This document shows positions 14,406 to 62,849 of a stretch of DNA of 64,000 bases, one piece after another. Made by a program: the position numbers and the translations under genes. The stretch covers positions 36,275,001 through 36,339,000 of the forward strand of contig OY987265.1 of NCBI GenBank assembly GCA_963920665.1. Reading direction: 5' to 3'. The notes below the pieces were generated by a model. The model was not told the origin of the DNA. It did not search any database and saw nothing but the letters and a program-made list of their open reading frames with translations. This DNA comes from Straminergon stramineum (Eukaryota; Streptophyta; Bryopsida; Hypnales; Calliergonaceae). How positions within the stretch are numbered: the stretch's first letter is position 1; the number at the start of each line of letters is the position of its first letter.

Positions 14406-14514
14406 TTAATTGCTACATCTTGTGTGAAAAATGAAGCTTTTTTTATCCAAATTTGGTTAGTGCATTTTAGAAATTGAAATATTGATTATTGGTGTAAATA
14501 ATTTAGAGCTTTAA

Positions 14515-15446: not shown

Positions 15447-15449
15447 TCA

Positions 15450-17995: not shown

Positions 17996-17999
17996 TTAA

Positions 18000-18781
18000 T
18001 CCCTCAAGGCCTAAGCCATTTCTGTACTTTTTCACAAGTTTGAACTTTGAGTGATAGTGTGCATTGTACATCAAGCTGATTACATGATGTTAAGGTAAAC
18101 CTGCCTATGACAGGCAGAATGAGTGGTTTGAACTGTTGCCATTAGCAAAATGATTCAGATTTTTTTCCATACATAGACATATGTGAGAATTGAAGGAAGC
18201 AATTGAAATTTATTTTTTTGATAAAGTAAGAATTTTTGAAGTGTACAGCTCAATTGGTGCAACAGAGTCTGTAGACTACCCCAAATCAGCAAAAGGGGTT
18301 TCCATAATGGTCATCTTACCACCTAAACCAATCACAACATTTTCTAACATGGACACATGGTTACAACATTTTCTAACATGGCCATGACATGAAGGAATAA
18401 AAAAATAACTTTTTATGACCAATTTACACTTGAATGGTGTAAGTGCCCTATGACAACGACTAATAACTCCATGACCATCTCAGAAGACAAGATTATGGCC
18501 ACAAATCAACCTAATGTACTCCTAATCTCATTTATTAGAAAAAATCTGCCATAGGTTGGTGTAAGACTCTAATGGATGGTTTTCTAGATGACTACATTAG
18601 GCAGTTTGCTTGTCATGGGTTAGTTTACCTTAATTGTACTTTCGAACTTCCCTGTTCAATATGAACATTAGAATATGAAATTCACTTAGATATACTTCTT
18701 AGAATGTAGGGAAATGAAGTTATAACTTTGACGTGTTGAACAGGTGAGAGGCCAAAAACAGGCTCCTTGGGCCTTGAGGGG
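18000..18781. mobile_element. TTAA-flanked DNA element, 782 bp, with nested MITE
   Basis: TTAA at 17996-17999 and 18782-18785. The left end is TCCCTCAAGGCCTAAG; the right end in reverse complement is CCCCTCAAGGCCCAAG. That is about 14 of 16 matching terminal bases. The TA-type MITE at 18,093-18,630 is nested inside, so the original element was only about 240 bp. Confidence 0.7.
18093..18630 (+). mobile_element. TA-type MITE family, 538 bp, copy 1
   Basis: Flanked by TA, with ends AGGTAAACCTGCC and, in reverse complement, AGGTAAACTAACCC. It matches 45,555-46,092 (reverse orientation) and 58,521-59,063 (same orientation) along the whole length, including AGATGACTACATTAGGCAGT and AATAACTCCATGACCATC. 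Three copies of nearly constant length with fixed ends define a real family. It is inserted inside a TTAA element. Confidence 0.75.
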
Positions 18782-24167: not shown

Positions 24168-24311
24168 TTACAAAATTTCAAAGCCAATCACTACAACCAT
24201 TGGAGAAAACTAACAGGATTGACTAACAACGTCTGTGCACAAGGCTGCTCATTGTTTGGACAACCGACTTCTTGCTCATTGATGGCCAAGCGCGGCTTAA
24301 AGCTCCTTTAA

Positions 24312-25267
24312 CCCCTCACCGCCGAAGGGGATGAAAAGTGTCCTTAGGTCAAATTCAAGGAGCTGTAATTTTTGCATCCAATGTCTGAATTCAATAAAAC
24401 TTGTTGGAAATTTTTTTTTCTCTCTTCTAGTTTGTGTGATAAAATTTTCAGATCAATACAAGATGTACTGAATTTTTGTAAGCCAATCAAAGTTCACAAG
24501 TTCAATTTGAGTTCACTAAACTACATTTGATGGCTGCAACTTTGGGGGCTTGTATCTCCTTCATTCAAAGTCCTTTTTCAATAAAATTTAACGAGTTATG
24601 TTCCCCTTGAAGTCTAGTTATTGTGGTAGAATTTTCATATCAATCTAGATTGTTTTGAATGTCTGGGAGCAATTCGAAGTTCAAAATCCAGACATTTTTG
24701 GATTACAGTGAACTTTGGTGGCTTGTTTCTTCTTCACACAATGTTTGTTTCCAATAATTTTTTTTGGAAAATTTGTGCATACTAGTCTAGTTTTTGTGTA
24801 TAAAATTTCATATCAATCCAAAAAGTTATGAGTGACTGAGAAACATTTTAGTAGGAGGTTCAATTTTTGATGTATTTTTTGTAACTTTTCTTGCTATTTT
24901 TTGACATTTCAAAGCCATTTTGCAGACACAATGAGTCAATTGAATGATATTTTTTTCATCAATGTGTTTGTATGTTGATTTTGAATCAATTTATAGTTTA
25001 AAGTTTCTCAATTTGAGTAGATTTAGAAACCAAATTTCACCTCCAAATGTGTTTTTAGAGAAATTTTAGCATCCTTTTTCAATACTAAAACATTATCATC
25101 TTTCAATCTATGCGGTCAAATGACACCAAATTTGATGCATGTCATCTACAACAAGTGCACTACAACATTGTATGGTTGAGATATCTATAACTAAGTAAAA
25201 ATTATATCTATAACACTTCAAAAGGAATGTTGTTTTTGAACCTGTTCAAGCCTTAGGCGATGAGGGG
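24312..25267 (+). mobile_element. TTAA-flanked DNA element, 956 bp, best terminal repeats
   Basis: TTAA at 24308-24311 and 25268-25271. The left end is CCCCTCACCGCCGAAGG; the right end in reverse complement is CCCCTCATCGCCTAAGG, with 15 of 17 bases identical. The interior shares ATCTTTCAATCTATGCGGTC with the other long members. No coding frame of note, so it is non-autonomous and appears relatively young. Confidence 0.8.
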
Positions 25268-25979
25268 TTAACTTACAGGTATAATTGGAGTTGAGACCTT
25301 GCTTTGGAATTACTTGTTGCACTTTATCTCTGCTCCACAAACACCAGAAGCCTTACCAAGTCCAATGACCAAAAAGGAACAAAATGTTGATACTTGATAG
25401 AGACCCTCTATAACCTTACAATAAATAGAACCCATCCAAAAGATATGCCTGTCTTGAGTGTTTGAAGGTTATGAGTAAAGAAAGGAGATTTTCGGAAGAT
25501 TCATGAGCCTTCTCTTTTCCTATCATGTCAACTGATGTGGAAATCAAACTTGTTGAAAGCTTCGTCACGAGCCTCTTCATAAAGACTTGTAAGGATAGCT
25601 GTTTTTGAATCTGGCCGTGCACGATGTTAAGTCTGAATATCGTCTCAAACTACGAGCTCCATTGTAGAGATCTCCAATTGCAATGCCTAAAATGATCACC
25701 ATTCTCGGAGCATAACTCTTGAACTGCGAGCAGCCAAGCAAGCCCTAATCATCTGTATGTGACATTGATGATGGTGTGAATTTTGTTTTTCAGGCGATCC
25801 TTGAGTTCTTTCAGGACTTCGTGGATTTGGAACTGAAGTTCATTGTAGATGACGTCACCACTGGTGATCCCAATGCTACTGGTTTGACATGGCATTTAGG
25901 TATATAGGAAACCCTCTGAATTATGGTGTTTCCTTTTGGACATGATTTTCAGCAGATATAGATTGCTCTCCGGAGCTTT

Positions 25980-26170
25980 GAGAAAACATCATTAAGAGAA
26001 TCTGAGATCTCTCTATGGTCACAATGATTCCAGTGATATTGCCATGATACGGGACCTCTCTATGATCATCATGATTATATGGGAATATCACCATAATACA
26101 TTTGGGAGACTTCTCCATGAGGCATGGAGAAGAATATCTTTGTGATTCCCTCTGTCTAATGTTTCCAAAA
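25980..26170. repeat. Fold-back MITE in the NTF2-like fragment intron (left arm)
   Basis: It carries AACATCATTAAGAGAATCT at the left and GGGAGACTTCTCCATGA further in. It resembles the Sec14 intron-5 element and is present identically in the right arm (about 41,930-42,115), so it predates the inverted duplication. Another copy is at 63,645-63,830. Confidence 0.5.
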
Positions 26171-26654
26171 CAATCTAATTCTACTGTTAGTAAACCTTGA
26201 TGTTTTGCTTTTCAAGTCAAGATGATGAAACTCTCTCTCTTCATGTAGATTTTAATTGTCTCACGAAACGTTGTCTTTGATGTTTATGAACCAGAGTGGA
26301 ACGGTACGCCATTTCCGTTGAGCAAGGGTTGTACCTTTCATCGCTGCCAAGTGTTGAATGGCAAACAGCAGTTTGTGTAAGCACTTCACCAGCCTGTAAG
26401 TTATGTTTCGGTAATTATTTCTTGGTTTCTGTTTCTTGCAATTGATCATTCGGGGAGTCTCTGATGTCCAGTGACTAAGTTTCACAGTTTTTTCTGATAG
26501 GCAGAAGAGGCTTCAACCAAACCTGGCGATCTGACACTGGTGAGTACTAAGCGTGAACACTTTTTCTCCACCTGAGTCATTTGTCCTGTTCTACTGGTGA
26601 ACCCACCCTGTTTGTTGTGTGTACGGAAAACACGGTAATTACTCTCAACCTTAA

Positions 26655-28959
26655 CCCCTTAACGCCTGAGGGTTTGGAGAGACTCATCATCTACTTCACC
26701 ATATTTTTTATGAAAGGAGAATACAGTAGGCTTTAGGTCTACAATGATAGACTATATTGAAGGCAAAAAAATTTCCTATCATACATATTGTAGTTAAGTA
26801 CATTTTCAAAATGTCAAAACACCAAGTGAAAAAAAATGTTGAACATGATAAATTGGGAAGTATAGGGTGGTTCTAAAATAAGTTGTTCGTATATCATGGA
26901 GTCAATCCGTGTTATTGGGTGGTGAGATACAACCCTGGAGAACAAGTCAGGCGTACCCAGAGAAAGGCTGCTATGACAAAATTGATGGCCTCCAATCATT
27001 ACTCACCGGACTGAGCGGTGTACACTATTCAAGTATTAGTTGCAAGGTTTGAGTGTTAGTTGTGAGATTTAGAGATAAACTTTGAAATACCAAATTGTGT
27101 TTAGGCACAAAATTGCCAATGCCAAATGAATATTTCTATTTATCCCTAATTGCCCAATCAACTATTCATGGTTGATCTAAAATTTCAGGCTTGACATTGT
27201 GTAGGCAATAAAATACCCTTGACTATTTCAAAAAATATTATAGGCAATTTTGAAGGTTTATTATTAAAAACTTTTTTTTCATTAAAAAATGGTAAATATT
27301 TAATTTGTAAGAGGTCCTCAAAGGCATATATGTACCCTTAGATGTTGGGTATGATACACTTGCAAAACAAACATTTATACTTATTGCAATCTTTAATCCG
27401 AACATCCTTCTACCTTTCTACTTTCTTCATCTTCATCCAGGACCTAGACTTGCTCCCCATCCTAGAATTAGAAATAAAAAATATCGATTAAAAAACTTTT
27501 CAAACATTCATTACAAGAGTAATTTCAACAACAAATGTTTCTGAATGTTCTCACATGTTCTATGGTTTGTGTGAATTAATATTTTATAGGGGCACGTGTA
27601 TAGGCAAGTGAAAGTATTGACGTGCATATCATCCAAATGTAAAAAGGTCTGATGCTAGGATGTGCTTCAAAACATCTTGTGATGCTACAAGGTTTGTCGT
27701 AGCAACACTCAGTCGAGGCATTCCCCTATAATTTAGAAACATAGCTTCTACTGTAGGGACTTCAAAACATCTTGACATGCTATAAGGTTATGTCATAGCA
27801 AGTCTCAGTTGAGGTCCCCATCAACTTCATTAGCATTGTTTCTAAATGAACCTTTCTTCAAAATGAGTGTGAGAACATCATTTAATAATGAATTGTCCAT
27901 CATGAATCCTCAAAGGATATGGGATAATTTGAAGATGAGAGCTTGACCACTCATTGTCAAAATGCAAGAATTGTACTCAAAGTAGAATTTTAGTCCTCAT
28001 TTTAGCATAGTAGAATACCTTCTTTCAAAAAACTTTGAACTAAAAAGAAGTGGGTAATTAAGCTAAGTTTAATCTCTAAATTTTTTTTTGAGGTTTTGAG
28101 GCTCATACTAAAAGTTATGGACAAGTTTCAAAGAGGGATTGGAAGGGACATTTTTTTGGACAATTTAAAACCGTCTCTTTGATATTTGTCCATAACTTTT
28201 TATTGGAGTCTTGAAATCTCAAATCAATTTTTGTAAATGAAATTTGGCTTGATTTAACAAATTTTTAAATTTCAAATTTTTTTGGGAAAAATTATTCTAC
28301 TATGCCCAAATGAGGTTTGAAATTCTACTTTGAGATTATTTGAAATTATTGTGAAATTCTTAAGAGAAATATGAAAAAAACTCTTATCTAATATAGAATA
28401 GACTCAAAAAATCTGAAATTTTCACCATATTTGTACCGTAATATTTTAGTGCATAAGAGCATGGTATAAATGAAAGTTATTGTGCTATTCTAAAATTAGA
28501 AAATCAACAAACTAGGCCCAAAGTTCATATTTCCAAGAAAATCTAAAAAACAATTTGGACCCATTTCATTTATTTCCAAAAAATCATTGGGACTCAAGGA
28601 CTAGGCCTGCACTCAAGTTGTATTTGAAGACTGGGGCTGTAATGGGGTTGCTATAATTGTTGCATACTAGCTACATTGGTCACCCTCCATGCAACCTCTA
28701 CAACTCCTGACAAGTATTCTCCCTCATCCCAATGTATGTCTAAAACCTTGTATTGTATTCTTGGTAGAATACAAGCTTTGCATAGGTACAAAATCTTTAA
28801 TTTTGCTGATTTTCTTTATTTTTAAATTGCTAAATTTTCAACTTACTCTTGCCCCCAACTTTATAGTTCAATAGATTTCATTTTGATTCCAATTGTGTTA
28901 TGTAAATGCAACCAGAACACAAACCGTAGGCCATTTCTAGCCATCTCGGCGTTAAAGGG
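26655..28959. mobile_element. TTAA-flanked insertion, 2,305 bp, with exact empty site
   Basis: TTAA at 26651-26654 and 28960-28963. Ends are CCCCTTAACGCCTGAG and, in reverse complement, CCCTTTAACGCCGAG. The right arm of the inverted duplication has the same flanks joined at one TTAA (41,417-41,420), with the preceding CTCTCAACC and following CACACAATAATCC unchanged. This is direct in-window proof of insertion after the duplication, with a 4-bp TTAA duplication. The interior is AT-rich with no long frame and contains a fold-back repeat at 27,976-28,334. Confidence 0.88.
27976..28334. repeat. Fold-back repeat nested in the TTAA insertion
   Basis: CTCAAAGTAGAATTTTAGTC at the left faces TTTGAAATTCTACTTTGAG at the right. 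Inside, AAAAGTTATGGACAAGTTT faces TATTTGTCCATAACTTTT. The arms are about 160 bases and imperfect. Confidence 0.6.
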
Positions 28960-30206
28960 TTAACACACAATAATCCTAAGCTTTTAGTGCTTTGTACGTA
29001 TGCAGGTGGCTTTAAAGGGGCTTGGTGCATGGCTATGGAGATTTCCATCACTTGCGTTTAATTTGGTTTCGGAAGAGTCGTTTCTGAAGGTGTTAGTTTA
29101 GGTCGAAGATGGAAAGGCGTGCAAATTGGAGGACCAAATAAAATGGTTTTGTTACCTGATTTTGTTTTCAGGTAAGCCTGGTTCCCTTCGCCATCCCTTG
29201 CCATTTTGTGCAAGTCAGTTTCAATCATGGCAAATTGGTGGTCTGATTGGAAGGTGTGAGTTTGTGTAGCTTCCACCGCCATATGATTTTATTGAACTGA
29301 TTTGCTGAAATGCCTAAGGTAATTTGCATGCAAGTAAGCTATTGAGCATTGATGCTATTATTGACTTGCCTACTTTTATCTGGTTGGATCTTGTTTGAAG
29401 TCCAAAGAATATTCTAGATTCTCTTTTTATGCATTTTTTGGACTTTGTAGGTATGAACTATGAATTTTGAAAGTGCTAAAAATAGGTGTATCCAAGAGCT
29501 ATCCTAGGCCATCATGAGTAGAGACAATACATTTTAGGTAGGTAAGCATTTGTAGTTTGTGGTTTTTGGAAGAAGTTCCAATTGGGTGCAATTTCCTTAT
29601 ATTTTCTTTTAGCTTACCTATTTAGTTGTGTAGTCCATGTTGTATTGCCTATGAATTGAGAATTTGTTTTTTGGGATGTATATACAAGCATGGAGGTTGA
29701 GAAGGACACATGGAACATCCAATAGTTGACAAGTCTTGCATTGTTGCTATTGGAATAGATAAATGGATTGATGAATGTTCTTGTTTTGAGGTAAGGTGAT
29801 GCTTTGGGATGGGCTTAGTTGTGGGGCATTCTTGCTTGAAAAGAATAGAGTTATGTCAACATTTAGTAACATCGTAGATTTGTCATTGAACCACCAAATA
29901 AGGCTTGCCAATGGCTATTTTCATCATTATTTGTTAGGTCAATCTTGTCTTTCCCTAGAAACAAGCATTGCATTTCTTCTTTGAATTTGAGGATAACTTT
30001 GAACATTTCTATTGACTTACATATTTTTACAAACTCTTGGATCTTCTCTACATTGTTGTTGTACATGTCTTTAGGTACTCAATAGTATTTCTTGAACATA
30101 TGTAATCACTAACTACAATGGATAATGTAATTTCGAGTTCCCATTATGAATGCATATTGCACATATTGGGATCTAAATGTTTATCATGTTCTCAAATATT
30201 GTCTTA

Positions 30207-31979
30207 CGTTATTGTGATGTGGGTCGTCTATTAGTTAAAATTTGTTGCAGCCCTAGTAACACCTTACAACTCCAAACATACTTCAAGAGCCCTTCACAAC
30301 TTTTTGGGCTCATCATGTTCCAGGTCCAGTATCACTTAGGCCCAATTAACTAACATTGTACATGCTATGCACTCATAGCATTAGTTCTCATTTTCAACTG
30401 ACTTTGCTAAATTCCAATGCTTGGGACTACTAATACACACTCCACTCGTGGCACTTGGCATGTCACTTGGTGACATCGGGTGGAATTTCCATCTTACTGT
30501 ACTAGGACTCTTGGTGGCACTACTCACCACAGTCCTAACCAACCTTGATTGTCACCCCATTCCATACTAGCCCCTTTTTGTACTTGCTATTTTCACACCA
30601 ATACTAACCGGGATTCACAACTCGGAATCCATTGCCAAGGGCCTAGCAAGGAGTAGGACTCCAACCAACTGGTGCCCCAGGATACATACACAAGTGTCCC
30701 AAGGAGCCTTGAAGCCGGTGGTGAAGTTACATCACCACCCATGAGTCACCGGGACTCACCAAAGCTCTAAGAAGGAGGGAGGAGGGAGACTAACCCCTCC
30801 TATAGTACTTTTTATGGCATTTGACAAATCCCCCCTTTGTGGGTCAAAGGGACTTCCCAAACCCCCTTGGGTTTTGGAAGACCACTCATTTCCACCCGAA
30901 CTCCCCCCAAGTTCCACCTCCATTTGTACTCCTGAACTTCCAAACGGCGTAACTTTGTTGTCAGGGCTCAAAATCACACATGTGAGCCCATTTTGGATAT
31001 CCGCGCGACGAGAAGATGCCTATGGACTACTCACTTGTCCCTTTTGGAAAATTTCTCACAAAGTTATGGCCCTCCAAAGATTCGGATTCACCAAGAGCGG
31101 CGTCACGCTTTCACCACAACCCTTCTTTTGGTCATAACTTTTGGCTCATGTCTTAGAACCTCGTAATGCTTGGCATTCTAGGTTCCTTGGCTTTGTAGCT
31201 TTCCAATGATATGATACATGCAATGCTTTGTTGAGTGATTCCTTATGAACCCCTCACACCTAGCCTTTAAGTATCTTGGCATCACCAGGACACCCCGAAC
31301 TTTGAACGACCATAGCTTCTAGCCTACTAGTCCAAATCACACGTTCTTTAGATGGTTAGAAGCGTATTCTCAAGAGCTTTCCAAGAATGTATAACATGCT
31401 ACTATTCTCTCCTTAATCAAGGCCCTATTATGCCTTGTTTGCTCGAGAGTCTCTCATTTCTCCCTTCTTAGCCTATTGCAAGGCTAGGGAAGTTACCCCC
31501 AAGGTCCCCCTTGCTCACTAAGGCACTTCGGGCACCCCAAGGAGATAGGGGCGTGAAAAAATTAAACATATATATATTTCAATATTAGTTCTATACTTGC
31601 AAGTTAGTTATCTCAAATCTTAAAGGTCAATGGATAGGTATTTATAAAGTAGCTTGTAATTCCTAATTGCTTTTACTTTATTTAATAGATTAAAAAAATA
31701 GCATATAAAGGTTAAGAAAATAATTTATAGGGAGGAGAGAAGGGTTGTTGGATATATATTATGAGGTTTTGTGGATGAAGATAGATTCACTAAAGCAATA
31801 GTGAAGTTATACTTTATCTAAAATCAAGTATTTTTCAAAATGGGTTTTAACTAATTATTGTGATTGGGTTGGTGTTGGAATTGAGGTTTTCTTGGTCATA
31901 GGCATTTTGAGACAAACAAACACTACCACAGCCAAAAGCCCCATACTTTTCTAGATTGACCGCAAACCTCATGACAACG
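30207..31979. mobile_element. 1.8-kb insertion in the inner part of the left arm
   Basis: By comparison with the right arm, where AATATTGTCTTAT-type sequence runs straight into ATATGGTTACAAGG, this stretch is extra. Its ends are CGTTATTGTGATG and CTCATGACAACG, a short imperfect inverted pair. The interior to about 31,560 is C-rich and distinct from the surroundings, with a 107-codon frame at 30,814-31,137 that I do not recognise. It could be a retrotransposon piece or a DNA element. Confidence 0.45.
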
Positions 31980-32079
31980 TAACATATGGTTACAAGGAAT
32001 AAAAACAACCTAAAGAGTTGATTGAGTGTTAAGATCAAACATTTGAAAATCTTGAAGTTGAATTTTGTTGTGTTCTTAT

Positions 32080-32611
32080 TACCTTTCTACAAATAAATTC
32101 ATGTGTTGCTTATATTATTGTACATGCATTATTTTAAGAACCAAATATACAGTGCAACATAAAAATCATCTAATTGTAAATGAAGAGGATGACTCAAATT
32201 CACTATTCAATAGTGGTATGAAAAGAAAAATTACATAAGCAATAAATGGATTGGCAAGTGGAGACCTCCCATGAATAGAATACCATTGATGAAGAGGTTG
32301 GTCCATGAAGTTAATTTTGTCTATGCATGAAGGATATCACTTTTGGTCTTTGCAAAATGCACAATTTGGTTGGCCTTTCTTCCAAAATGGTTGTTGAACT
32401 ATACATAGTCTTAAGGTTCAATCTTAGATCACCACATTTCTACTAGTGAAGCCTCCCAAAAAATTTGGTAGCTTGTCAAACTACAAACAACATTGTCCAT
32501 TCAACACTTCCAATAGTTCCAAGTTGATCAACTTTCCAAAAGCTATAGGTAAATATCAAATTTTACTTTCTTAGTTTCTCTAACATCCAATTGCCTCAAA
32601 ATTAAAATTCA
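32080..32611. other. AT-rich DNA, nothing recognised
   Basis: No coding signal or clear repeat structure between the inner end of the duplicated arm and the tandem repeat downstream. Confidence 0.4.
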
Positions 32612-33175
32612 TTAGAGGAGATTTTAGGCTCCGGGAGAACTCCAAATTCTCGGATTGCAAGGAACGTGGAAATTGCACTATAGTAATATTGTAGCACTAG
32701 TTTGACGTGGCTAAAGTGTAGCCATATCATTTGAATTTTGTTTTAAAACGAATTTTTTTTCAATTTTAGAACAATTTTTTTTATAAATTTAAAAAAAAAT
32801 GAAATTTTTTCTCACAACGGTGAGTTGTTACCTCTCTACACTGGAAACAAGCTTTAAATGGCCCTCCTAGGGCCCAAAATCTCTTCTAGTGCATGAAAAG
32901 AGATTTGAGGCCTGGGGAGGGCTTCAAGTTGTCAAAATGTAGGAAACGTGGAAATCGCATTGCAGTAATAGTGTGGCCAAGTCATTTTAAATTTTTAATT
33001 AATTAATTATTTCTTTTCTTAAATTTTTTTCAATTATAGAACAATTTTTTTATAAATTTTATAAATTCTTTTAATAGTGGCCAGCCATTCCTTCACTACA
33101 TTGGGAACAACAAAGGGAATAGGCTTGAAACAACCCTCCCTGGGTTTGAAATCTCTTCTCCTAGACAAACCAATT
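32612..33175. repeat. Diverged tandem duplication, period about 280 bp
   Basis: Two consecutive copies share GAAACGTGGAAATCGCA-type sequence, a TTTCAATTNTAGAACAATTTTTT-type run, a CTACANTGGGAAC-type block and AAATCTCTTCT. They lie just beyond the decayed 3' end of the LRR array. Confidence 0.5.
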
Positions 33176-33179
33176 TCTT

Positions 33180-35488: not shown

Positions 35489-36260
35489 AGGAATTTGGTA
35501 GTTGGAGAAGTTGACTATAATCTTGTAGGTTCAAATCTTCTAAGTTGCTCAACTTCCCAAAGGACTCGGGCAAACATTGGATTGCACTCCCTTCAAGATG
35601 TAAGTTTTTCAAGTTTTGAAGGCCTCCAAAAGAATCAGGTAATCCCATGAGCCTATAACAAGCCCGTAGATTCAACACTTCTAATTTATTCAATTCTCCA
35701 AAAGATTCAGGTAAACTCTGGATTCCACTTTCTTGAAGATGTAAGTTTTTCAAATTTTGGAGGTCTCCAAATGAATTTGGTAGCTCTAAAAGCTCACCAC
35801 AACACTGTAGATTCAACACTTTCAAATTGTTCAACTTTCCAAAGGACTCAGGTAAACTTTGGATTCCACACCCTTGAAGATCTAAGTTTTTCAAATTTTG
35901 GAGGCCTCCAAAGGAACCTAGTAGTCCCATGAGCCTATAACAATATCGTAGATTCAACATTTCCAAATTCATCAAATTTCCAAAAGATTCAGGCAAACTT
36001 TGGATTCCACTCCCTTGAAGATGTAAGTTTTTCAAATTTTGCAGGCCTCCAAAGGAATCTGGTAGGTGGACAAGTCGACTACAATATTGTAGTTTCAAAT
36101 CTTCTAAGTTGCTCAACTTCCCAAAGGACTCGGGCAAACTTTTGATTCCACTTTCTTGAAGATGTAAGTTTTTCAAATTTTGAAGGCCTCCAAAGGAATC
36201 TGGTAGCTTTTGGAGCTTGCTACAATACCATAAATCCAATACTTCTAACTTCCTCAAATT
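33840..36260 (-). repeat. 141-bp tandem LRR doublets, about 17 copies
   Basis: The LRR-coding stretch is a tandem array with a period near 141 bases (47 residues, two LRRs). For example, GGATTCCACTCCCTT-type marks lie 141 bases apart at about 34,451 and 34,592. Copies are very alike, suggesting recent expansion or homogenisation by unequal exchange or conversion. Confidence 0.85.
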
Positions 36261-38721: not shown

Positions 38722-38749
38722 TGTACCTCACTTCTGCAAAATTGAAATT

Positions 38750-40173
38750 GATACCTATGAGTTCAAGGACAAAAGAGAATACTAGTTTATGTTTCACCAA
38801 CCCCACACAAGGAATGATCTACTTCTTCTTGCCATCTTTAAATCCCAAGTTCTCAACAAGATTTTTGTCAATACAATTTAGATGACAAATGAAAAAAATT
38901 TGGAAGCTATTTGAATACTTTCAAATGTTGTCAAATTGCATTTCTATGTATGCTACTTTGCACATCATCAATTTAAGGATGCTAATGCAGTAAAACTATA
39001 TACTGCAAAAAAGGATTGGAAACCATGGTACATTTGGTGTAGAATAGGTGAATCTAGGAAGAACTAATCTCAAAAGTGGCTATAGTCCTTCCTAAACCAC
39101 TTCATAACAAATCCCTCACAAGAGAATGCATCTATTTCCTTCTAAGTACAAGTGAGGAAGATTCACCAACCTATGCCTCACGTACCCAATTCATGAAGAA
39201 AGTGCCAACCTCTTAGAAACTCACAAAGCTATATCATCATATTTCAATATTTTGATTTAAGATTAGGACACATAAATGTTTCAAGTGCCTAAAAATATCA
39301 ATTAATCAAATGCTCTCATTATTAACACCTCCTAAATTAATATGTACCAATTGGTGAAGAAATAATTGTAAAATACCTACCGAAAAAATTTAATACCTTA
39401 TAGCTTTCACATATGGAATCCAAATGATCAATGAAGTCTTTGTTGATTTGAAATCTCCTCTTAGAAATCAATTGGAATATATATAACTTTTATCAATAAT
39501 AATAAAAATGTTCACAATTGAAAAAGTGGCAAATTTAGGAGTCCCTATTTCAATGTTAAACATCAAATTGGAAACAAATCCAAAATCATTCTTGAAGACT
39601 TGGAAACCAATCACAACATATAACACCATTTCTTGATTAATTCAGAGAGTCTACTATGCCATGAAATAATATATCTCGGGTCCATCTCACAACAAATTGA
39701 GAAGAGCATAAAATTTAATTAAAAAGAGGCATTTCAAAACCTTATGTCTATAAGAAATTCTCAAGGGAATAAAATTAAATACCCAAGTTTCCAAGGGTTG
39801 ACTAAGGACTAGTAAGGAATCTAGCCTTCCACAAATCTAGTCTCTTCATATTTCCTTAAGAATTATAGCCCTCTATCCGAACACTCTGACACAACAGTGA
39901 AAACCCAAAAGCTAATAGTCCTACAATATGATCAAAATGCATATAAAATTGGCAAAAATAAAACACTTGATCCAATTCAATCTCCAACCTAAGGTTCTAA
40001 TTTGACACAAAAATCATACTTGCCCAATGGTACACAATAATTACCAACATTCAAATCATTGCAAAAAAGCACTCGAAACACAACAAAATTCAACTTCAAG
40101 ATTTTTAATTGTTTGATCTTTACACTTCATCAACTCTTTTCATTGCTTTTATTCCTTGTAACCATATAAAACA
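38750..40173. other. Upstream flank of the TNL gene
   Basis: AT-rich with no coding signal. It should hold the TNL promoter, but no convincing TATA box was fixed. The last 90 bases or so match 31,985-32,075 in inverted orientation. Confidence 0.4.
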
Positions 40174-42527
40174 TAAGACAATATTTGAGAACATGATAAA
40201 CATTTAGATCCCAATATGTGCAACATGCATTCATAATGGGAACTCGAAATTACATTATCCATTGTAGTTAGTGATTACATATGTTCAAGAAATACTATTG
40301 AGTACCTAAAGACATGTACAACAACAATGTAGAGAAGATCCAAGAGTTTGTAAAAATATGTAAGTCAATAGAAATGTTCAAAGTTATCCTCAAATTCAAA
40401 GAAGAAATGCAATGCTTGTTTCTAGGGAAAGACAAGATTGACCTAACAAATAATGATGAAAATAGCCATTGGCAAGCCTTATTTGGTGGTTCAATGACAA
40501 ATCTACGATGTTACTAAATGTTGACATAACTCTATTCTTTTCAAGCAAGAATGCCCCACAACTAAGCCCATCCCAAAGCATCACCTTACCTCAAAACAAG
40601 AACATTCATCAATCCATTTATCTATTCCAATAGCAACAATGCAAGACTTGTCAACTATTGGATGTTCCATGTGTCCTTCTCAACCTCCATGCTTGTATAT
40701 ACATCCCAAAAAACAAATTCTCAATTCATAGGCAATACAACATGGACTACACAACTAAATAGGTAAGCTAAAAGAAAATATAAGGAAATTGCACCCAATT
40801 GGAACTTCTTCCAAAAACCACAAACTACAAATGCTTACCTACCTAAAATGTATTGTCTCTACTCATGATGGCCTAGGATAGCTCTTGGATACACCTATTT
40901 TTAGCACTTTCAAAATTCATAGTTCATACCTACAAAGTCCAAAAAATGCATAAAAAGAGAATCTAGAATATTCTTTGGACTTCAAACAAGATCCAACCAG
41001 ATAAAAGTAGGCAAGTCAATAATAGCATCAATGCTCAATAGCTTACTTGCATGCAAATTACCTTAGGCATTTCAGCAAATCAGTTCAATAAAATCATATG
41101 GCGGTGGAAGCTACACAAACTCACACCTTCCAATCAGACCACCAATTTGCCATGATTGAAACTGACTTGCACAAAATGGCAAGGGATGGCGAAGGGAACC
41201 AGGCTTACCTGAAAACAAAATCAGGTAACAAAACCATTTTATTTGGTCCTCCAATTTGCACGCCTTTCCATCTTCGACCTAAACTAACACCTTCAGAAAC
41301 GACTCTTCCGAAACCAAATTAAACGCAAGTGATGGAAATCTCCATAGCCATGCACCAAGCCCCTTTAAAGCCACCTGCGTACGTACAAAGCACTGAAAGC
41401 TTAGGATTATTGTGTGTTAAGGTTGAGAGTAATTACCGTGTTTTCCGTACACACAACAAACAGGGTGGGTTCACCAGTAGAACAGGACAAATGACTCAGG
41501 TGGAGAAAAAGTGTTCACGCTTAGTACTCACCAGTGTCAGATCGCCAGGTTTGGTTGAAGCCTCTTCTGCCTATCAGAAAAAACTGTGAAACTTAGTCAC
41601 TGGACATCAGAGACTCCCCGAATGATCAATTGCAAGAAACAGAAACCAAGAAATAATTACCGAAACATAACTTACAGGCTGGTGAAGTGCTTACACAAAC
41701 TGCTGTTTGCCATTCAACACTTGGCAGCGATGAAAGGTACAACCCTTGCTCAACGGAAATGGCGTACCGTTCCACTCTGGTTCATAAACATCAAAGACAA
41801 CGTTTCGTGAGACAATTAAAATCTACATGAAGAGAGAGAGTTTCATCATCTTGACTTGAAAAGCAAAACATCAAGGTTTACTAACAGTAGAATTAGATTG
41901 TTTTGGAAACATTAGACAGAGGGAATCACAAAGATATTCTTCTCCATGCCTCATGGAGAAGTCTCCCAAATGTATTATGGTGATATTCCCATATAATCAT
42001 GATGATCATAGAGAGGTCCCGTATCATGGCAATATCACTGGAATCATTGTGACCATAGAGAGATCTCAGATTCTCTTAATGATGTTTTCTCAAAGCTCCG
42101 GAGAGCAATCTATATCTGCTGAAAATCATGTCCAAAAGGAAACACCATAATTCAGAGGGTTTCCTATATACCTAAATGCCATGTCAAACCAGTAGCATTG
42201 GGATCACCAGTGGTGACGTCATCTACAATGAACTTCAGTTCCAAATCCACGAAGTCCTGAAAGAACTCAAGGATCGCCTGAAAAACAAAATTCACACCAT
42301 CATCAATGTCACATACAGATGATTAGGGCTTGCTTGGCTGCTCGCAGTTCAAGAGTTATGCTCCGAGAATGGTGATCATTTTAGGCATTGCAATTGGAGA
42401 TCTCTACAATGGAGCTCGTAGTTTGAGACGATATTCAGACTCAACATCGTGCACGGCCAGATTCAAAAACAGCTATCCTTACAAGTCTTTATGAAGAGGC
42501 TCGTGACGAAGCTTTCAACAAGTTTGA
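40174..42527 (-). repeat. Large inverted duplication, right arm
   Basis: Near-identical reverse copy of 25,544-26,654 joined to 28,960-30,206. Visible differences are single bases, for example GTACGTACGCAG here against GTACGTATGCAG in the left arm. It lacks the TTAA insertion and so shows the pre-insertion state. Confidence 0.9.
41279..42277 (-). pseudogene. NTF2-like (SnoaL-like) protein, C-terminal exons, right copy
   Basis: Same four exon-like pieces as the left copy, on the minus strand. The first is 42172-42277 and the last 41279-41374, with the uninterrupted last intron between the PGDLTL and VALKGLG pieces. The GC-richer DNA at 42,530-43,350 lies where the promoter and first exons should be, but I could not recognise N-terminal NTF2-like sequence there. 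This copy could be the 3' part of a living gene; the left copy is the likelier dead duplicate. Confidence 0.6.
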
Positions 42528-43358
42528 ATTGCGCACTGATACGATCGAAAAGAGAAGCATGCGGAAACAAAGTAGTTGAATGAATTCTTATTCATGGTTA
42601 TTCATCTCGTTACTCAAGCTCCATGATCCCTAAACCCTAAACTATGACGTCCTTGCATCCCCACCCTCAGGAATCTTTCAAGAAGTAGCAATTTCAGGAA
42701 ACAGATCAAGCAAATCAGAAACGCAATCCAGAACTACACGGAATATTCCATCCTCCAGTAACCCTGGCGCTACAAGATTCGTTCAGAGGCTCGCAACCTA
42801 ATCCTAATTGTGGACACAAAAAAGGCACAAAACTACTTGCGAAATCTCGTCAGGGATGATTCCACGTACCAGTGACAGAGCAGCCAGGACGAACATGTAC
42901 CGCCGACTGCGGATTAAAGTACGCCAGATCAAACCCTAAGCATCGAACAAGGAATAGACAACATAGTCACCAATCTTTCAGAAATTGAAGAGAGAGCAAG
43001 CCTCAGTGATCGCTGCCTTGAAAACTTCACCATCTCTTGCTGCCGACAGACTCTGGCTAACGACACGCTCTCACCAACAACAATGGCGGAACGACAAGCT
43101 CAAGCTCCTCCATCGCAAGGGCGTGCAAATGCTCCCGCTCGCATTCCAGTTCAAAGCTGCAAATCGATAGAACCCCCGCACAACCGAAAGCTAAGCATTG
43201 ATCATAGCACGAAGAGAACGGAACGTGGGATCTAAGGGACGAGGCTTATGCTTAGAGGAGCAAGGATGGAACTTGAGACGAGGGACGGCCACCAGTGACC
43301 GTGGATCCCTGTGGAAATGGATGCATCAGAGGTGGTGGGCTCAGGGTTTTGCGAGACG
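42528..43358. other. GC-richer unique DNA beyond the right arm
   Basis: Composition is gene-like. A plus-strand run bridging the arm border reads SLYEEARDEAFNKFELRTD then TIEKRS before a stop, and a 61-codon frame lies at 42,985-43,170. I recognise neither. It may be 5' exon or promoter DNA of the NTF2-like gene on the minus strand, or a broken plus-strand gene. Confidence 0.35.
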
Positions 43359-43362
43359 TTAA

Positions 43363-46285
43363 CTACCCCCCCTCGAGCTAAAGGGGGGCCCTGCTTGGCA
43401 GTCGCAGTGGGGCCCTTCCCAGCCTGCCTTGCTCGACTCCGTCCCTGGATCCCGGCCCACGAGATCCGGAGTGGGATCCCGGCCCGGCCGTATGTACAGT
43501 AGCTGCCTCCCGTCCCACTCCAGATCGCCGTCTTCCACTTCAGCTAACCCTGAGGTATAGATTGGCGCTCCAGATCACCGTCTCTAGATCTCATTTTTGA
43601 ACGCTCTTAGCTGTGTCGTTTGCATACTATTGATCTATAAACTTTCATCCCTTCCAGAATGGTAAGAGCATGCCCACTCGTCTTGCAAAACGGATGACTT
43701 GTTAAGAGGACCGGCTTGCAAGTCGACGCTGGCTGGTAAATTGGGGTCAATTTGCAAGCCGGCTTGCAAGTCGACTGGGGCTCGCAAAACAGTAAACGAC
43801 AAATTGAAAATGCCTTTCCTCGACTGCTGGCAGTTCCTCTGCGTCAAGCTTTTTCACCTCCCCGCAAAGGCTTTCACCTCCCAGGCGGGTTGTTTTACCT
43901 ACACCGGTGTATTATTCCACAGATACTCTGAGTTTTAGTGAGGAATCCAAAAACAATCATCAGTATTTTATTGAATTTCCAAGTCCAGTTTGAATGGGAT
44001 CGAGCACAGTGAGAGTTGAACTGGACCTCACTAATACGAGCCACTGAGTAAGATCCTTGCAAATAACGTTGTTTATCTAGACACATTTATCTTCGAGTAT
44101 CAATATCGATGCTCATAGTTTCTGATGCCATTCACTGTTCGTAATATTGTACTCGTAACAATAAACTATGGAGTTGATCTATCTTTGTATTCTCTGGACT
44201 TACTAATAAAGTCACATTCTCAAAGTCCTCTGGACCTTCTAGCAAGGTTTAATTTCTGAATTCCTGCGGTCTAGGGCAAAGTTTGCGCATACAATATGTG
44301 TCTTTTTTTCCGCAGGAGGTTGATTCCCTTTCAGAAAATCTGAAGTTCATCGATCATTGCAACGTTTAGACTTCTCCGTCTTATTAAGATAAGTCTATTG
44401 TTGAGCTTTTTACCTCCTAGTTCACTCCCAGCTTAGCCTGTTAACAAGTCGCGGGTGGGGCAGAGCATATCAACCTGGCTTGCAAAATGGATGGTCTGGC
44501 ATTTTGCCAGCCAAACCACCTTTGCAGTTTGCCAGGCGGGTGGGGATGCTCTAAAGTCAAGATGATCACCTCTATTGGAAAACTCCCTTTTTACAGCTCT
44601 CACAGACAAATCCTGACTTTTGAATTGCAGCACTGCATACCCAAACCGAGTCAGCATGAGAACATTCTTCACAACATTTATCCTCTTCCGGAAATAATCC
44701 AAATCCCAAATATTGTGAACAAATTTGAGAAGACTTACTGAGTCAAGCCTGTAGGACCCGTTCTGCTAAGAGGTTTGAAGCAAATTGGGCAGCACGTACA
44801 AAAGCTCACTCCCTGAGGTGTTTTGTTCGGTACGGAGTATTTTTATGTGGGCCCTAAAAAAAGGTGGAGGAAGAAGTATCAGCCTTTAAACCTTGAACTT
44901 TGTAACATAAAATCCAAAATTGCCAAACCAACCACACAAACATCTTAAACCCCAAAAGCAAAGTTTGAGATGGAGAGTCTCGAGCACGGTCCTCTTGAAG
45001 ATGATGCTTGTAATGCACGAGGCTTGGGAAATGTCATCGCTGGTGAAGATGATAAGAATGAAGACTATTATCTGTAGTTCGAGATTAGTGGTTGTTGTAG
45101 ATGTGATTGTGGTTGTGATCTTCTGATTCCTCATCAAAAGTAATGGTAGGACTTCAGAAGTTGTTGCATGCATTTTGATCATGCTCTTGTGGTTGTTGCC
45201 TCTTCATCATGTGGTAGAAGGGATCGTACTTATTGTCATTTCTTGTCAATAGCAAGTTTAGGAGTGAATCTTATTCGGTCTTTCGAAATATTGGTTGCAA
45301 GTGTTGCTAAAGTTTCCTTGAAAGATGTCTAGGTAGTGGATCTACAACTCTACACTTATGAAAATGTTAACCTTGGCCAATCAATATCATTTACTTACTT
45401 CACAATGTAATTTTGTGTCTAAATCAAATTAGAAGATCACTTCTGTGTAGATCCCTTTGAGCAACATCAATTCCATCATCGGCCATACGGTGGTGGTCCA
45501 TGGCAACCCTAATGTAGAAGTCCAACCTGAAATTGAGCTCTTCCAAGTGTGTTAAGGTAAAGCAGCCCATGATAGGCAAATTGCCTAATGTAGTCATCTA
45601 GAAAACCACACATTAGAGTCTTACATCAACCCATGGCAAATTTTTTCTAAGAAATGTGATTCTGACTACATTAGACTGATTTGTGGCCATAATTTTGTCT
45701 AACTTGGGAGATGGTCATGGAGTTATTAGTGACTGTCATAGGACTCTTACATCATTCTAGTGTAAATTGACCATAAAAAATTATTTTTTTATTCCTTCAT
45801 ATCATGGTCATGTTAGGAAATGTTATAGCCATGTTAAAAAATATTGTGACTGCTTTAGGGGGTAAGATGACCATTATGCAAACCTTTTTTGTTGATTTGG
45901 GGTAGTCTACAACTTTGGTGGGCTAATTGGGTTGTACACTTCAAAAAATCATAACAAATTAATAATTTGTCAAAAAAAATAGAATTTCAATTGCTCTCTG
46001 CATTTTTCCTGTTTATCTTTATATGGAATTTTTTTTTTAAATTTTCAAAAATGTGAACATAGCAAACCAGCCTGTCATGGGCTGGTTTACCTTATATGTT
46101 GAAGCCCGTTTTAGAGTGTAGGACAGAGGGACGGGAGGACGGGAACTGGAGGCCAGGGCCGGGATCCCATTCCGGATCTCGTGGGCCAGAGTCAAGCAAG
46201 GCAGGGACGGAGTCAAGCAAGGCGGGCTGGGAAGGGCCCCACTGCGATTGCCATGCAGGCCCCCCTTTAGCTCGAGGGGGGATAA
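43363..46285. mobile_element. TTAA-flanked element, 2.9 kb, with GC-rich terminal repeats of about 160 bp
   Basis: TTAA at 43359-43362 and 46286-46289. The ends share CCCCCCTCGAGCTAAAGGGG, and the inverted similarity continues for about 160 bases (CAGTGGGGCCCTTCCCAGCC, CCCACGAGATCCGGA, TGGGATCCCGGCCC). These terminal repeats are far longer and more GC-rich than in the other TTAA elements, so it may be a distinct group. The interior is non-coding. It holds a TTGCAAGCCGG-rich segment (43,660-44,555) bounded by AGAGCATGCCCAC and GTGGGGATGCTCT, perhaps a nested hAT-like MITE, and the TA-type MITE at 45,555. Confidence 0.6.
45555..46092 (-). mobile_element. TA-type MITE family, 538 bp, copy 2 (reverse)
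   Basis: Flanked by TA, with ends AGGTAAAGCAGCCC and TGGGCTGGTTTACCT. It is the reverse of 18,093-18,630 and is nested in the 2.9-kb TTAA element. Confidence 0.75.
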
Positions 46286-46289
46286 TTAA

Positions 46290-47365
46290 CCCCAAACTGT
46301 CATTGGGGACAGAAAGTGTCCTTCACAGTAAAGACACAAGCAGTAGGCAATTTTGAATGGGAAAATGCCACAAAGATGTCTTGTAGGGTTCATGAAGACC
46401 TATCCATCGAGCTAAAATGTAGGAAATGTCGATTGGTATTGTGTTTTCAATGCGAGCCAAAAATTCTGGGAGTTCGGGAAGGGCTCCATTCTAGCATCAA
46501 AACGTGGGGGTGCGGCTGACGTCACTCGAGCACACGGCATGGAACAGGTGGCAACCTGGAGAAATATTGTTGCCCTTGTTGATGAGTCACGTGCTTGGGT
46601 GGAAGGCGAGGATGCCATTTCCTGATCACATTGACGAATTAATCAAGCACCTGTGGCCTGACAATGTCCCAACAAATGAGGGCGAAGGAAGCTGACCAGT
46701 TGGCTGCAAGAGCTAGGCTTGTGTTCGGAAGTCCAGTCAACGGGATGCTCCATAGTGCACCCGACAGTTCTCCGGGTTTGATAGCCTGCATTGGTCGAGC
46801 AACATTTGAAGGTGGCTCACGGAAAATCTAGCTGTTGAAAGAGCTTGGAATTTTTTCATAATAGTCCTTGGATCCACTGCAACGAGATGAACCGGTCCGA
46901 TCTCTTTGCATGATTGTGCACTTTTGTGGGATAATTTTAGAACGAGAAGGTAATGCAATTGAAGTGTTCGAGGTACCTCCGTGAACGACATCGAGTACGT
47001 CACGATGATGCAACTTTTGCTAATGTTTTTCGTTGACATGTCAGTTTAGGTGAAGATCTTCAACTTGTTAGTGGAGGTCTGGCACTAATTTCGAAGTTAT
47101 GGTGACAAAAAAGCCTCTCGATGAGAAAGAAACTCCTTTTCAACTTCCATTTTTCTTTGTTGACAACATGATTCTTCATAAAAAAAGTAAATGAAACAAG
47201 AGAATCAACAGGTTCAAATTTTTCTGAGTATGCAAAGCCTACTTCAGTTCCCTTTTGTACGGTTGGATCTACTTGTTCGGCAACAGATTTGTCTACATAA
47301 ATTTTGAAAAACGAACACTCACAGAGTACATCTTCCGAGGTTAGAAATTCAATGTCACTTTGGGG
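46290..47365 (+). mobile_element. TTAA-flanked element, 1,076 bp, with a Cys-rich coding remnant
   Basis: It shares TTAA 46286-46289 with the element on its left and has TTAA at 47366-47369 on its right. The left end is CCCCAAACTGTCATTG and the right end in reverse complement is CCCCAAAGTGACATTG, with 14 of 16 bases identical. It is GC-richer than other members. A 67-codon frame at 46,316-46,519 contains MSCRVHEDLSIELKCRKCR followed by LVLCFQC, a Cys/His cluster. Other coding-like pieces follow in different frames, with stops (for example TWRNIVALVDESRAWVEG). Possibly a decayed autonomous member or a captured gene piece. Confidence 0.6.
46316..46519 (+). pseudogene. Cys/His-rich fragment (piggyBac C-terminal-like or B-box-like)
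   Basis: The spacing is C-x2-H-x8-C-x2-C-x4-C-x2-C (CRVH, then KCRKCRLVLCFQC). piggyBac transposases end in a cysteine-rich zinc-binding domain with CxxC pairs and an LC-x3-C step, which this resembles; a B-box zinc finger is the main alternative. The surrounding TTAA element makes the first reading attractive, but no DDD catalytic domain was found and the fragment is short. Function is not claimed. Confidence 0.3.
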
Positions 47366-47526
47366 TTAACATCTCACCAGGGTTTTTCATGTCAAGTATT
47401 TATTTGGGGTACACCAGCAGATTGCCCTTCTGATTAGGTTGTCCAATCTAGCACATATGCAGGTTCATGATAAAAAAATAGATTTTAAAATCTACCCCAT
47501 AGGTTAATAATAGAAATTCAAATTAA

Positions 47527-48038
47527 CCCTTAAAAGGTTGCAACCCCCATAATTAAGGTAGTCAGCAGTATTGCTCCCATTATTGAACCAATATGTAGAT
47601 TCTTTGTTTCTACACTGAACAATGATGTCATCCATCAACCTCTTTTTGACCTCGGCATCCCTTAACCCTTGAACGCTGGGTTGGTGACCATGGAAATCAG
47701 CCATTTCGAAACCATGTGACATCATTGACTTTGAAAAATAAAAAATACTCATTAGGAGTCAAACTATTGTAGAAGATCTCCCCTTTCCACCCCTAATTCC
47801 AAGGATGAATAATTGCACTTCTATCCTATAGAAGAGAATTCCTTGTCATTCATCGGACAAAAAATGTTCGCCACGTCATTTACAGGTTAGAGGTTAATAG
47901 TGTAAGGATGTGGCCCCCCATGACCAAGGTAGTCACCAAAATTCTCCAATTATTTGACAAATAGGTGCATTCTCATTTTCTACAATCAATAGTGAAGTCA
48001 TCCATTGGACCATTATGGTCCGCAACATCCTCACAAGT
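47527..48038. mobile_element. TTAA-flanked DNA element, 512 bp, with probable empty site
   Basis: TTAA at 47523-47526 and 48039-48042. Ends are CCCTTAAAAGGTTGC and, in reverse complement, ACTTGTGAGGATGTTGC, a weak pair. In duplication copy 2 the flanks CTCAAA and GTGTCTT are only a few bases apart (56,944-56,958, TTCAA in place of TTAA), so the whole segment is an insertion or was lost there. Confidence 0.5.
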
Positions 48039-48086
48039 TTAAAGTGTCTTATTCTTTGTTTTATTATTCATTGTTTTATTGATTAA

Positions 48087-49011
48087 CCCCTAAAGTCCCA
48101 TTGTCCCCTCATGGGACAAAATGGATTTCAGGCAAGCTCCTAGTATGGTCTCAATATTCATCCTGATTTTTTGAAACTTTTTGTGAAGATTGAAAAATTC
48201 GGAAGTTTTCCAGGAATATAATTTTTATTTCATTTAATGCCCCAAAGCAAAAGTTATGGCACAAAAAGTCTTTTTTTTAGTCAGTGGATAGAAATCCTCT
48301 CACACAAAAAAAATTTAAAATAAAAATTAATTATTTCTCATAGATTGTAATTTTATCTATGTGGGAAGCTTTGATTCATTCCATTTGGATTCGTTATGTG
48401 AAAGTTATGGACAATCTTATTTGGGGGGCAGTTAGAGCATCTTCTTGAAAAAATAACTTATAGGATTCATTTCTGAATGCAATTTTCACAATTTTTCAAA
48501 AAAAATTGTTTAACAAGGTTATGTTTGCTTGCTAAAACAATCTGACCATTGTAATTATAGTGTTCCAATCCCATCTCAAAACTATTACTAATTTAGTTTT
48601 TCTTTCAATCTTGGACCTACTTCTACTTAACAATTTTTTAAATAATGAAAATCAAATGTTTTGTTTTTTTTAAATTCCTAAACTTTCACCTCAATTCACC
48701 AATACAAATTTTTTTTAATTCAAAGTCTGTAATGCAAATTTTTTCTATAAATGGCAGTCAAAGTCATCTAAAATTATATGCCAACGTTCAAAAAAAAAAA
48801 AATTTCCAACTTTGAATATTGATATCTTCTAGTTTCCATGGTTCAAACTTCAAGAAATTTTTACTACATGATTTGAGACTAGTGTTTGAAGTATAAGATC
48901 CTATAACTAGATTATTAAAAAAACATTTTAACTATTTTCTTGGGTGAACATAGCAAAATGGGCAATTTTGAGACATATTTGACCAAAAAAATGGTCTTGG
49001 GACTTTAGGGA
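48087..49011 (+). mobile_element. TTAA-flanked DNA element, 925 bp, with empty site
   Basis: TTAA at 48083-48086 and 49012-49015. The left end is CCCCTAAAGTCCCA and the right end in reverse complement is TCCCTAAAGTCCCA: 13 of 14. Copy 2 of duplication B has TGTTTTATTGATTAC running straight into ATAAATTGGTGTG (about 56,966-56,992), an empty site whose TTAA has become TTAC. It is the best-preserved long member; 2,082, 4,340, 14,515 and 62,850 are relatives. Confidence 0.78.
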
Positions 49012-49015
49012 TTAA

Positions 49016-62845: not shown

Positions 62846-62849
62846 TTAA

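Follow-up and report, generated by a model that had tools for sequence, protein, structure and literature searches.

A TTAA-flanked group of nonautonomous transposons, probably of the piggyBac type, in DNA most likely from a moss

The scarless behavior of piggyBac has made it a mainstay of genome engineering, and TTAA is the sequence that Sola3 transposons duplicate. According to the available portion of an insect study, TTAA is also the duplication of piggyBac, whose terminal inverted repeats (TIRs) are ~14 bp long with CCC/GGG expected as the first three bases (PMC10140906). In the same portion, a large share of the bee elements have CAC instead of CCC; CCC is therefore no firm criterion for piggyBac. 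The family is well known in animals and, in the parts of the literature examined, scarcely documented in land plants. That is, as far as the excerpts of these sources go, a review names piggyBac among seven superfamilies of angiosperm MITEs (PMC10004981), a fern repeat table gives 1,230 PiggyBac copies (PMC6890710), and the insect paper mentions that piggyBac is known from plants (PMC10140906). No report of piggyBac in a gymnosperm was found in the portions of the literature searched (conifer, Ginkgo, Picea, and Pinus). Among moss genome papers, the Pohlia paper gives DNA transposons as 23.68%, and the word “piggybac” is absent from its available portion; the main text of the Sphagnum paper has neither “piggybac” nor “TTAA.” The MITE Tracker paper, on another subject, lacks both words as well.

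The window considered here (the whole stretch of DNA analyzed, 64 kb) contains a group of nonautonomous transposons with TTAA flanks and C-rich ends that is genuine and probably of the piggyBac type. A preliminary description had proposed about 14 such segments, and the analysis agrees: there are 11 bounded elements (of which 47,523-48,042 has a poor TIR on its right side) and 3 decayed or truncated relatives. Their combined share of the window, described earlier as roughly a fifth, comes to 17.5%. All six segments that had been named prove to be bounded, their inverted ends rich in C, and their coordinates hold, with exact TTAA on both sides in five; the sixth, 13,821-14,405, has TTCA on the left and TTAA on the right. 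Across the 11 bounded elements, both borders are exact TTAA in 9, and E6 and E7 each have one decayed border. The members are as follows (coordinates include the flanks; strand is given where one was assigned).

24308-25271, E1: element 24312-25267; TTAA on both sides; ends CCCCTCACCGCCGAAGG / CCCCTCATCGCCTAAGG
26651-28963, E2: element 26655-28959, the longest; TTAA on both sides; ends CCCCTTAACGCCTGAGG / CCCTTTAACGCCGAGAT
17996-18785, E3: element 18000-18781; TTAA on both sides; ends TCCCTCAAGGCC / CCCCTCAAGGCC
48083-49015, E4 (also F4a): element 48087-49011; TTAA on both sides; ends CCCCTAAAGTCCCA / TCCCTAAAGTCCCA
46286-47369, E5: element 46290-47365; TTAA on both sides; ends CCCCAAACTGTCATTGG / CCCCAAAGTGACATTGA; G+C 0.44
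13817-14409, E6: element 13821-14405; flanks TTCA / TTAA; ends TTCCTAAAGGACC / ACCCTAAGGATTG
14511-15450, E7: element 14515-15446; flanks TTAA / TCAA; ends CCCCTAAAGG / CTCCTAAAGGACC
5596-5827, E8: small element 5600-5823; TTAA on both sides
1579-1908, E9: small element 1583-1904; TTAA on both sides; ends CCCCAAGAGTCC / TCCCTAAGAGAG (weak)
47662-47897, E10: small element 47666-47893; TTAA on both sides; right end CCTCTAACC
47523-48042, E11: element 47527-48038; TTAA on both sides; left end CCCTTAAAAGG, right end ACTTGTGAGG a poor match
2069-2988, plus strand, F4b: decayed relative of E4, 75% over 720 columns; right-end flank decayed to CCAA (read from outside inward)
4340-5262, plus strand, F4c: more decayed; 66% over 626 columns against E4 and 72% over 313 against F4b; ends without clean definition
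62846-63518, minus strand, F4d: truncated relative, 69% over 699 columns against E4; TTAA-CCCCTAAAGGACCAAGG preserved at one end, the other end lost

Several copies are related in their interiors, as had been proposed. Besides the E4 relatives, E1 and E6 have 88 aligned interior bases in common at 74% identity, the interior of E7 is partly that of E4 in reverse (70% over 191 columns), and E8 matches E10 at 74% over 210 columns. E10 lies nested within E11; its left end is related to the right end of E8, and its right end scores very low against the other ends. A TA-type MITE at 18091-18633 is nested inside E3. Further candidates were set aside. The segment at 43,359-46,289 is a different, long-TIR element with G+C-rich inverted ends that start CTACCCC/TTATCCCC, and its right TTAA is that of E5; the AT-rich TTAA pairs at 1235-1960 and 8949-10085 were left out of the group; and the nested MITE is not a second TTAA family, for its two relatives have TA alone in common with it.

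Could TTAA simply have fallen in these places by chance? The window is AT rich and holds 388 TTAA sites, and simple repeats swamp the unfiltered count of flanked pairs (TTAA, 8; AATT, 18; ATAT, 327; TATA, 355). When the inverted ends are required to be 12 bases long, with 10 or more matches and 5 or more G+C per end, six TTAA-flanked pairs are observed, whereas 300 dinucleotide shuffles in 2-kb blocks average 0.16 (257 give no pair, 39 give one, 4 give two, and none gives more); one of the six, 43,359-46,289, borrows its neighbor's TTAA and is not to be counted, which leaves five. TTAA ranks first (6) among the 256 flank tetramers, the next best reaching 2 and the other 255 together 25. A scan blind to the flanks returned 886 inverted 14-mer pairs, 15 of them with identical 4-base flanks; the flank is TTAA in 5 of the 15, and 4 of these are the listed elements E1, E3, E4, and E5. 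(The searches that led to E2, E8, E9, E10, and E11 started from TTAA.) Together with the four empty sites described below, these counts refute chance for the main elements and leave it hardly any probability as an account of the group, although chance may have a part in the weakest members (E9, E10, and E11 at its right end). Against the preferred reading, exact TTAA precedes just 1 of the 42 nontraining sites among the top 60 of an end-profile scan, and when an end is scored with its own element left out, those of E5, E9, and E10, and of E6 on the right, reach 0.3 to 8.0, under many background sites. Also kept out of the group are 7 of 25 TTAA-YCCY ends without a partner (1934, 17767, and 21106; 5020, 5104, 9854, and 36814).

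The strongest evidence for the elements, absent from the preliminary description, comes from empty sites: the window contains segmental duplications whose second copy is without an element. The clearest case is that of E2.

25509-30210: duplicated segment bearing E2, with its counterpart on the other strand at 40170-42557
41358-41482, minus strand: empty site of E2 in the inverted sister copy, with a single TTAA

With E2 removed, the segment is 98.9% (1,147 columns) and 99.7% (1,251 columns) identical to 40170-42557, and the sister copy runs through the site with one exact TTAA, as is the mark of piggyBac. E6, E4, and E11 have older, slightly decayed empty sites, each one base off TTAA at one of the three places compared. 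The empty copy of E6 near 60620 reads TTAA (the left flank of E6 itself being TTCA), that of E4 near 56969 reads TTAC, and the counterpart of E11 near 56950 reads TTCA, its right edge being drawn one base further along than in 47527-48038. For E7, the counterpart near 60707 gives no clean alignment and is not a clean empty site. Insertion is thus demonstrated by the empty sites in paralogous copies, with insertion and excision indistinguishable from each other, and the claim of a nonautonomous, TTAA-flanked, CCC-ended transposon group is borne out.

Because TTAA is palindromic, a duplication of TA followed by a terminal A would read identically in any single copy. Might these be Tc1/mariner-like elements that duplicate TA and have inverted ends starting ACCCC, the TTAA being merely apparent? 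The separate MITE at 18091-18633, 45552-46094, and 58519-59065 behaves in this way, with a TTAA-like flank in one copy and just TA common to all three, and an outer or near-outer base is lost at two decayed ends, 2987 (CCAA) and 17509 (TAAA). Against this, the outer T and A are retained at both ends of E1, E3, E4, and E5, which come from the flank-blind scan and were singled out partly by matching flanks. E6 and E7 likewise keep them at either end, their changes affecting an inner base (TTCA and TCAA). TA duplication alone does not predict such retention, and on the six elements considered, a small sample set against two decayed ends with loss or change, we regard the TA reading as quite improbable. 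The familiar plant MITEs (Stowaway with TA and Tourist with TAA/TTA) resemble the window elements in being short, noncoding, and bounded by inverted ends in plant DNA; they differ in target site duplication (TSD) length and end sequence, in that a 3-base TSD misfits a symmetric TTAA and TA is disfavored.

Which TTAA-duplicating superfamily, then, is involved? The inverted termini of ~14 bases from CCC expected of piggyBac are present, with YCC at the start of 18 of 22 ends (19 of 22 before the E6 end positions were corrected) and RR at the start of none. Base by base, position 1 is C in 17/22 and T in 5/22, and positions 2 and 3 are C in 20/22 each; these counts use E6 ends displaced by one and four bases, and E11 at its right end (ACT) stood outside the 22. 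Kolobok elements also duplicate TTAA, and their termini, in the part of the source available, are 5'-RR...YY-3' (PMC9587614); the window ends are the opposite, and we consider a Kolobok-type origin very improbable. The likeness to piggyBac of Trichoplusia ni (T. ni) and its relatives extends to the TTAA duplication, mostly CCC/TCC termini, inverted ends of ~14 to 17 bases, and single-TTAA empty sites. The differences are that subterminal repeats of the T. ni type were not identified in the window elements, that no transposase or credible remnant was seen in them, and that they reside in a land plant, most probably a moss.

No credible DDE_Tnp_1_7 (PF13843) transposase was found within the window. 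In a tblastn search of the window with 240 piggyBac proteins, the best match (E, 0.008, from 1 of the 240 queries) covers 57 residues near the germin gene and is not credible, and nothing inside the elements was better than ~0.06. Profile searches of the window reached at best an E of 2.3 over six frames and 1.9 for a zinc-finger profile, and protein and profile searches show no credible piggyBac coding trace in the interior of E2. E5 was rejected as a coding remnant: in Pfam its six frames match nothing except a B-box zinc finger (E, 0.0098; 16.5 bits, the cutoff being 24.1), and its cysteine pattern, by eye like the C-terminal finger of piggyBac, has no match to a profile of that finger. In two piggyBac protein searches (965 and 2,414 matches, the second with 7,989 candidates scored), no plant appears among the organisms named in the 120 matches listed for each, many of those matches bearing no name. 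In viral_contigs, 128 stretches fit piggyBac peptide patterns and none was confirmed; the end pattern has zero matches there and in prokaryote genome_contigs.

The piggyBac label of the preliminary description accordingly stands on its structural side, in the TTAA duplication and in termini that are YCC and not RR, and lacks a transposase in the protein and profile searches of the window; membership in piggyBac would be a purely structural assignment, by TSD and terminal bases. Elements of this same kind could be moved instead by Sola3 or by an undescribed superfamily. The lack of a transposase in the window leaves room for that, as do the 2,739 Sola copies against 1,230 PiggyBac copies in the excerpted fern genome table (PMC6890710). 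The YCC termini fit piggyBac, a weak argument against it, and we judge this alternative unlikely.

The preliminary description had taken the host for a gymnosperm and had drawn a claim about seed-plant genomes. A germin-like gene in the window instead falls among moss sequences (73% for Ceratodon; support for the clade, 100/99), and no gymnosperm is found among the 25 of 101 germin-like matches that carry an organism name. The host is most likely a moss, judging from this one protein, and with that the claim about seed plants falls.

In total, the best explanation, and one that we think likely, is that these are nonautonomous cut-and-paste DNA transposons of the piggyBac type in a moss nuclear genome. 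In this model, a transposase encoded elsewhere would recognize an inverted end of ~17 bases, about YCCYTAAAGGCC-AAGG, which elements with otherwise different interiors would have in common. The enzyme would cut the element out and join it at TTAA, giving TTAA on both sides, and excision or noninsertion would leave a single TTAA. We infer a piggyBac-family (DDE_Tnp_1_7) enzyme that acts in trans and continues to exist, and we take the host to be a moss.

A TTAA nonautonomous group in a moss is moderately surprising. We speculate, with some doubt, that the moss hosts a diversified piggyBac system, in which several nonautonomous families with different interiors obey one end code, movement has been recent (a single insertion separates two segments that are 99% identical), and the transposase belongs to a lineage so far undescribed in land plants, possibly acquired horizontally. 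In the portions of the literature examined, the land-plant range of piggyBac rests on passing mentions and one repeat table. Bryophyte ends with empty sites offer a clean start for finding a native plant transposase; the same ends and empty sites would help to ask whether that transposase arrived by horizontal transfer, and the ends would help to correct repeat libraries that leave such elements unclassified.

The six segments named in the preliminary description (E1 to E6) are each present at the coordinates it gave, and they belong to a larger set of bounded, TTAA-flanked, CCC-ended elements with no credible transposase (E1 to E11), with decayed or truncated relatives of E4 (F4b, F4c, and F4d).

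24312-25267, element E1
26655-28959, element E2
18000-18781, element E3
48087-49011, element E4
46290-47365, element E5
13821-14405, element E6
14515-15446, element E7
5600-5823, element E8
1583-1904, element E9
47666-47893, element E10 (inside E11)
47527-48038, element E11
2069-2988, plus strand, F4b
4340-5262, plus strand, F4c
62846-63518, minus strand, F4d

Segmental duplications within the window provide direct evidence of E2 having moved in one piece, either inserting in one copy or being cleanly excised from the other. Without E2, 25,509-30,210 matches 40,170-42,557 on the opposite strand at 98.9% (1,147 columns) and 99.7% (1,251 columns); E2 sits between two TTAA, and the sister copy reads a single TTAA across a gapless junction. 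Older duplications offer further empty sites (element-free paralogous counterparts) that agree with the E2 case: E6, flanked by TTCA/TTAA, has the counterpart TTAA, and E4 and E11, both flanked by TTAA/TTAA, have TTAC and TTCA, respectively. E7 does not align cleanly with its counterpart near 60,707 and has no empty-site support. The same reading, by eye, gives 7- and 8-base duplications for two other elements; thus, the approach does not force TTAA. These two, which have no counterpart in the paralogous copy (near 57.1 and 57.6 kb), are perhaps hAT- or MULE-like.

49131-49844, element with direct duplication CAATGTAG (8 bases), read by eye
51490-51780, element with direct duplication AGGTAAC (7 bases), read by eye; relative at 13489-13723
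43359-46289, element with G+C-rich inverted ends of ~160 bases, 82% alike, and another element nested inside

The older direct duplications (12.1-17.0 kb versus 57.9-62.4 kb; 47.5-52.4 kb versus 56.9-57.9 kb) hold many insertions in either copy and are useful for reading empty sites. One arm of the inverted duplication has 1.77 kb (30211-31983) that the other arm lacks (near 40167-40170); the edges of this stretch are not TTAA. A third copy of part of the duplicated segment (63513-63999; 86% identical) starts within a few bases of the F4d cut-off point. The window also contains foldback palindromes at 1403-1560 (75-base arms), at 9611-9860 (122-base arms), and, within E2, at 27976-28334 (160-base arms), and a tandem array of ~50- to 66-base units (59612-60119) in an insertion-rich stretch.

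The preliminary description had counted about 14 segments with TTAA flanks and CCC inverted ends. Such pairs are indeed far above shuffled expectation: with 12-base inverted ends and a G+C filter, the window holds 6 TTAA-flanked pairs, whereas 300 dinucleotide shuffles average 0.16 and never exceed two, and TTAA ranks first among 256 flank tetramers (runner-up, 2). One of the six is the distinct long-TIR element at 43,359-46,289, which shares a TTAA with its neighbor; without the G+C filter, simple repeats swamp the count (TTAA, 8; AATT, 18; ATAT, 327; TATA, 355). C-rich starts are commoner at TTAA than elsewhere, with YCCY at 25 of 776 TTAA sides (rate, 0.032) versus 0.005 to 0.021 for eleven other tetramers; 18 of these 25 ends fall in described elements, and 7 are without a partner. 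Among 886 inverted 14-mer pairs from a flank-blind scan, 15 had identical 4-base flanks, TTAA in five cases, four of them E1, E3, E4, and E5. An end profile trained on 20 ends, flanks excluded, recovered 18 of them among its top 60 sites; exact TTAA preceded only one (62850) of the other 42, the next two (19595 and 2987) followed TCAA and CCAA, and 14 of the 42 lay inside the leucine-rich-repeat array. Leave-one-element-out scores were poor for both ends of E5, E9, and E10 and for E6's right end. The profile is thus not specific on its own, and certainty is lowest for the small elements.

Is the duplicated sequence TTAA, or could it be TA, with an extra A in the element end mimicking TTAA? Because TTAA is palindromic, the two look identical in any single copy. 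A MITE family serves as a warning: E3 and the 43,359-46,289 element each contain one of its three copies, and the sole flank that the three have in common is TA. The decayed ends at 2987 (CCAA) and 17509 (TAAA) fit TTAA less neatly. However, the outer T and A are retained in E1, E3, E4, and E5, and also in E6 and E7, where the changes lie at inner bases. In this small sample, TTAA duplication is better supported than TA.

18091-18633, 45552-46094, and 58519-59065, MITE family with ends near AGGTAAACC; copies 71-78% identical

E4, F4b, F4c, and F4d have a common interior (66-75% identity), part of which E7 carries reversed; the E4/F4d local alignment stops at TTAA, and the ends of F4b and F4c are decayed. 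E8 and E10 are 74% identical over 210 columns, and E1 and E6 have 88 interior columns in common. A single rough end consensus, YCCYTAAAGGCC-AAGG, recurs across unrelated interiors, which suggests that one enzyme may serve several families; the poorest fits to the consensus are E5, E9, E10, and E11's right end. Elements and relatives total 11,215 bases (17.5% of the window), a figure that takes in E3's nested MITE as well as F4b and F4c, whose bounds are poor.

Which superfamily would supply this enzyme? In published accounts, piggyBac elements use TTAA with CCC/GGG as expected first bases, yet CAC in many bee elements (PMC10140906), and the TTAA and ATAA of the Trichoplusia ni element TFP3 are called typical of piggyBac (PMC8634313); Kolobok also uses TTAA, but its termini begin with RR (PMC9587614). 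The CCC ends here thus favor piggyBac. The proposed piggyBac assignment draws on TTAA and the terminal bases. The preliminary description had read the segments as free of a transposase, and tblastn with 240 piggyBac proteins and six-frame profile searches found no credible one in the window. A short plus-frame reading frame in E5 (46373-46456) has cysteines arranged much as in a B-box, but the match (E = 0.0098) falls short of the Pfam cut-off, and a piggyBac zinc-finger profile gives it no support. Protein searches returned 965 relatives for the T. ni piggyBac query and 2,414 for a consensus query; no plant is named among the 120 matches listed of either set, which carries little weight, as many rows are nameless.

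The host had been taken for a gymnosperm, a view that the window's germin-like protein speaks against.

52,457-52,984, minus strand, germin-like protein; 101 relatives, 25 with the organism named
31984-38550, minus strand, TIR-NB-LRR gene or remnant, spread across several reading frames (introns or breaks), with ~18 tandem 141-base leucine-rich-repeat units

The closest of the germin-like protein's 101 relatives is 98% identical, and the closest named one is from the moss Ceratodon purpureus (73%); Sphagnum reaches at most 63%, and the top seed plant reaches 46%. In a tree with 37 of the 101 relatives, it falls in a 20-row group with all ten Ceratodon and Sphagnum rows (support, 100/99; long branches are flagged at the group's outer neighbor), and 14 angiosperm rows stand apart. 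Gymnosperms are absent from the organisms named for the hits (25 of 101) and from the named rows of the tree. A moss is far more likely than a conifer, though one gene gives an indication rather than proof. The reading frames for TIR (E = 1.5e-26) and NB-ARC (E = 4.1e-33) are not decisive on the host, and no tRNA genes or Rfam families were found in the window.

In print, piggyBac is listed among angiosperm MITEs (PMC10004981) and in a fern table (PMC6890710) and is said in general to occur in plants (PMC10140906); the passages in question present no ends with empty sites. The literature searched, with most subscription journals outside its scope, yielded no report of piggyBac in a moss or gymnosperm. 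We consider it probable that these elements belong to a known kind, piggyBac, in a little-documented host.
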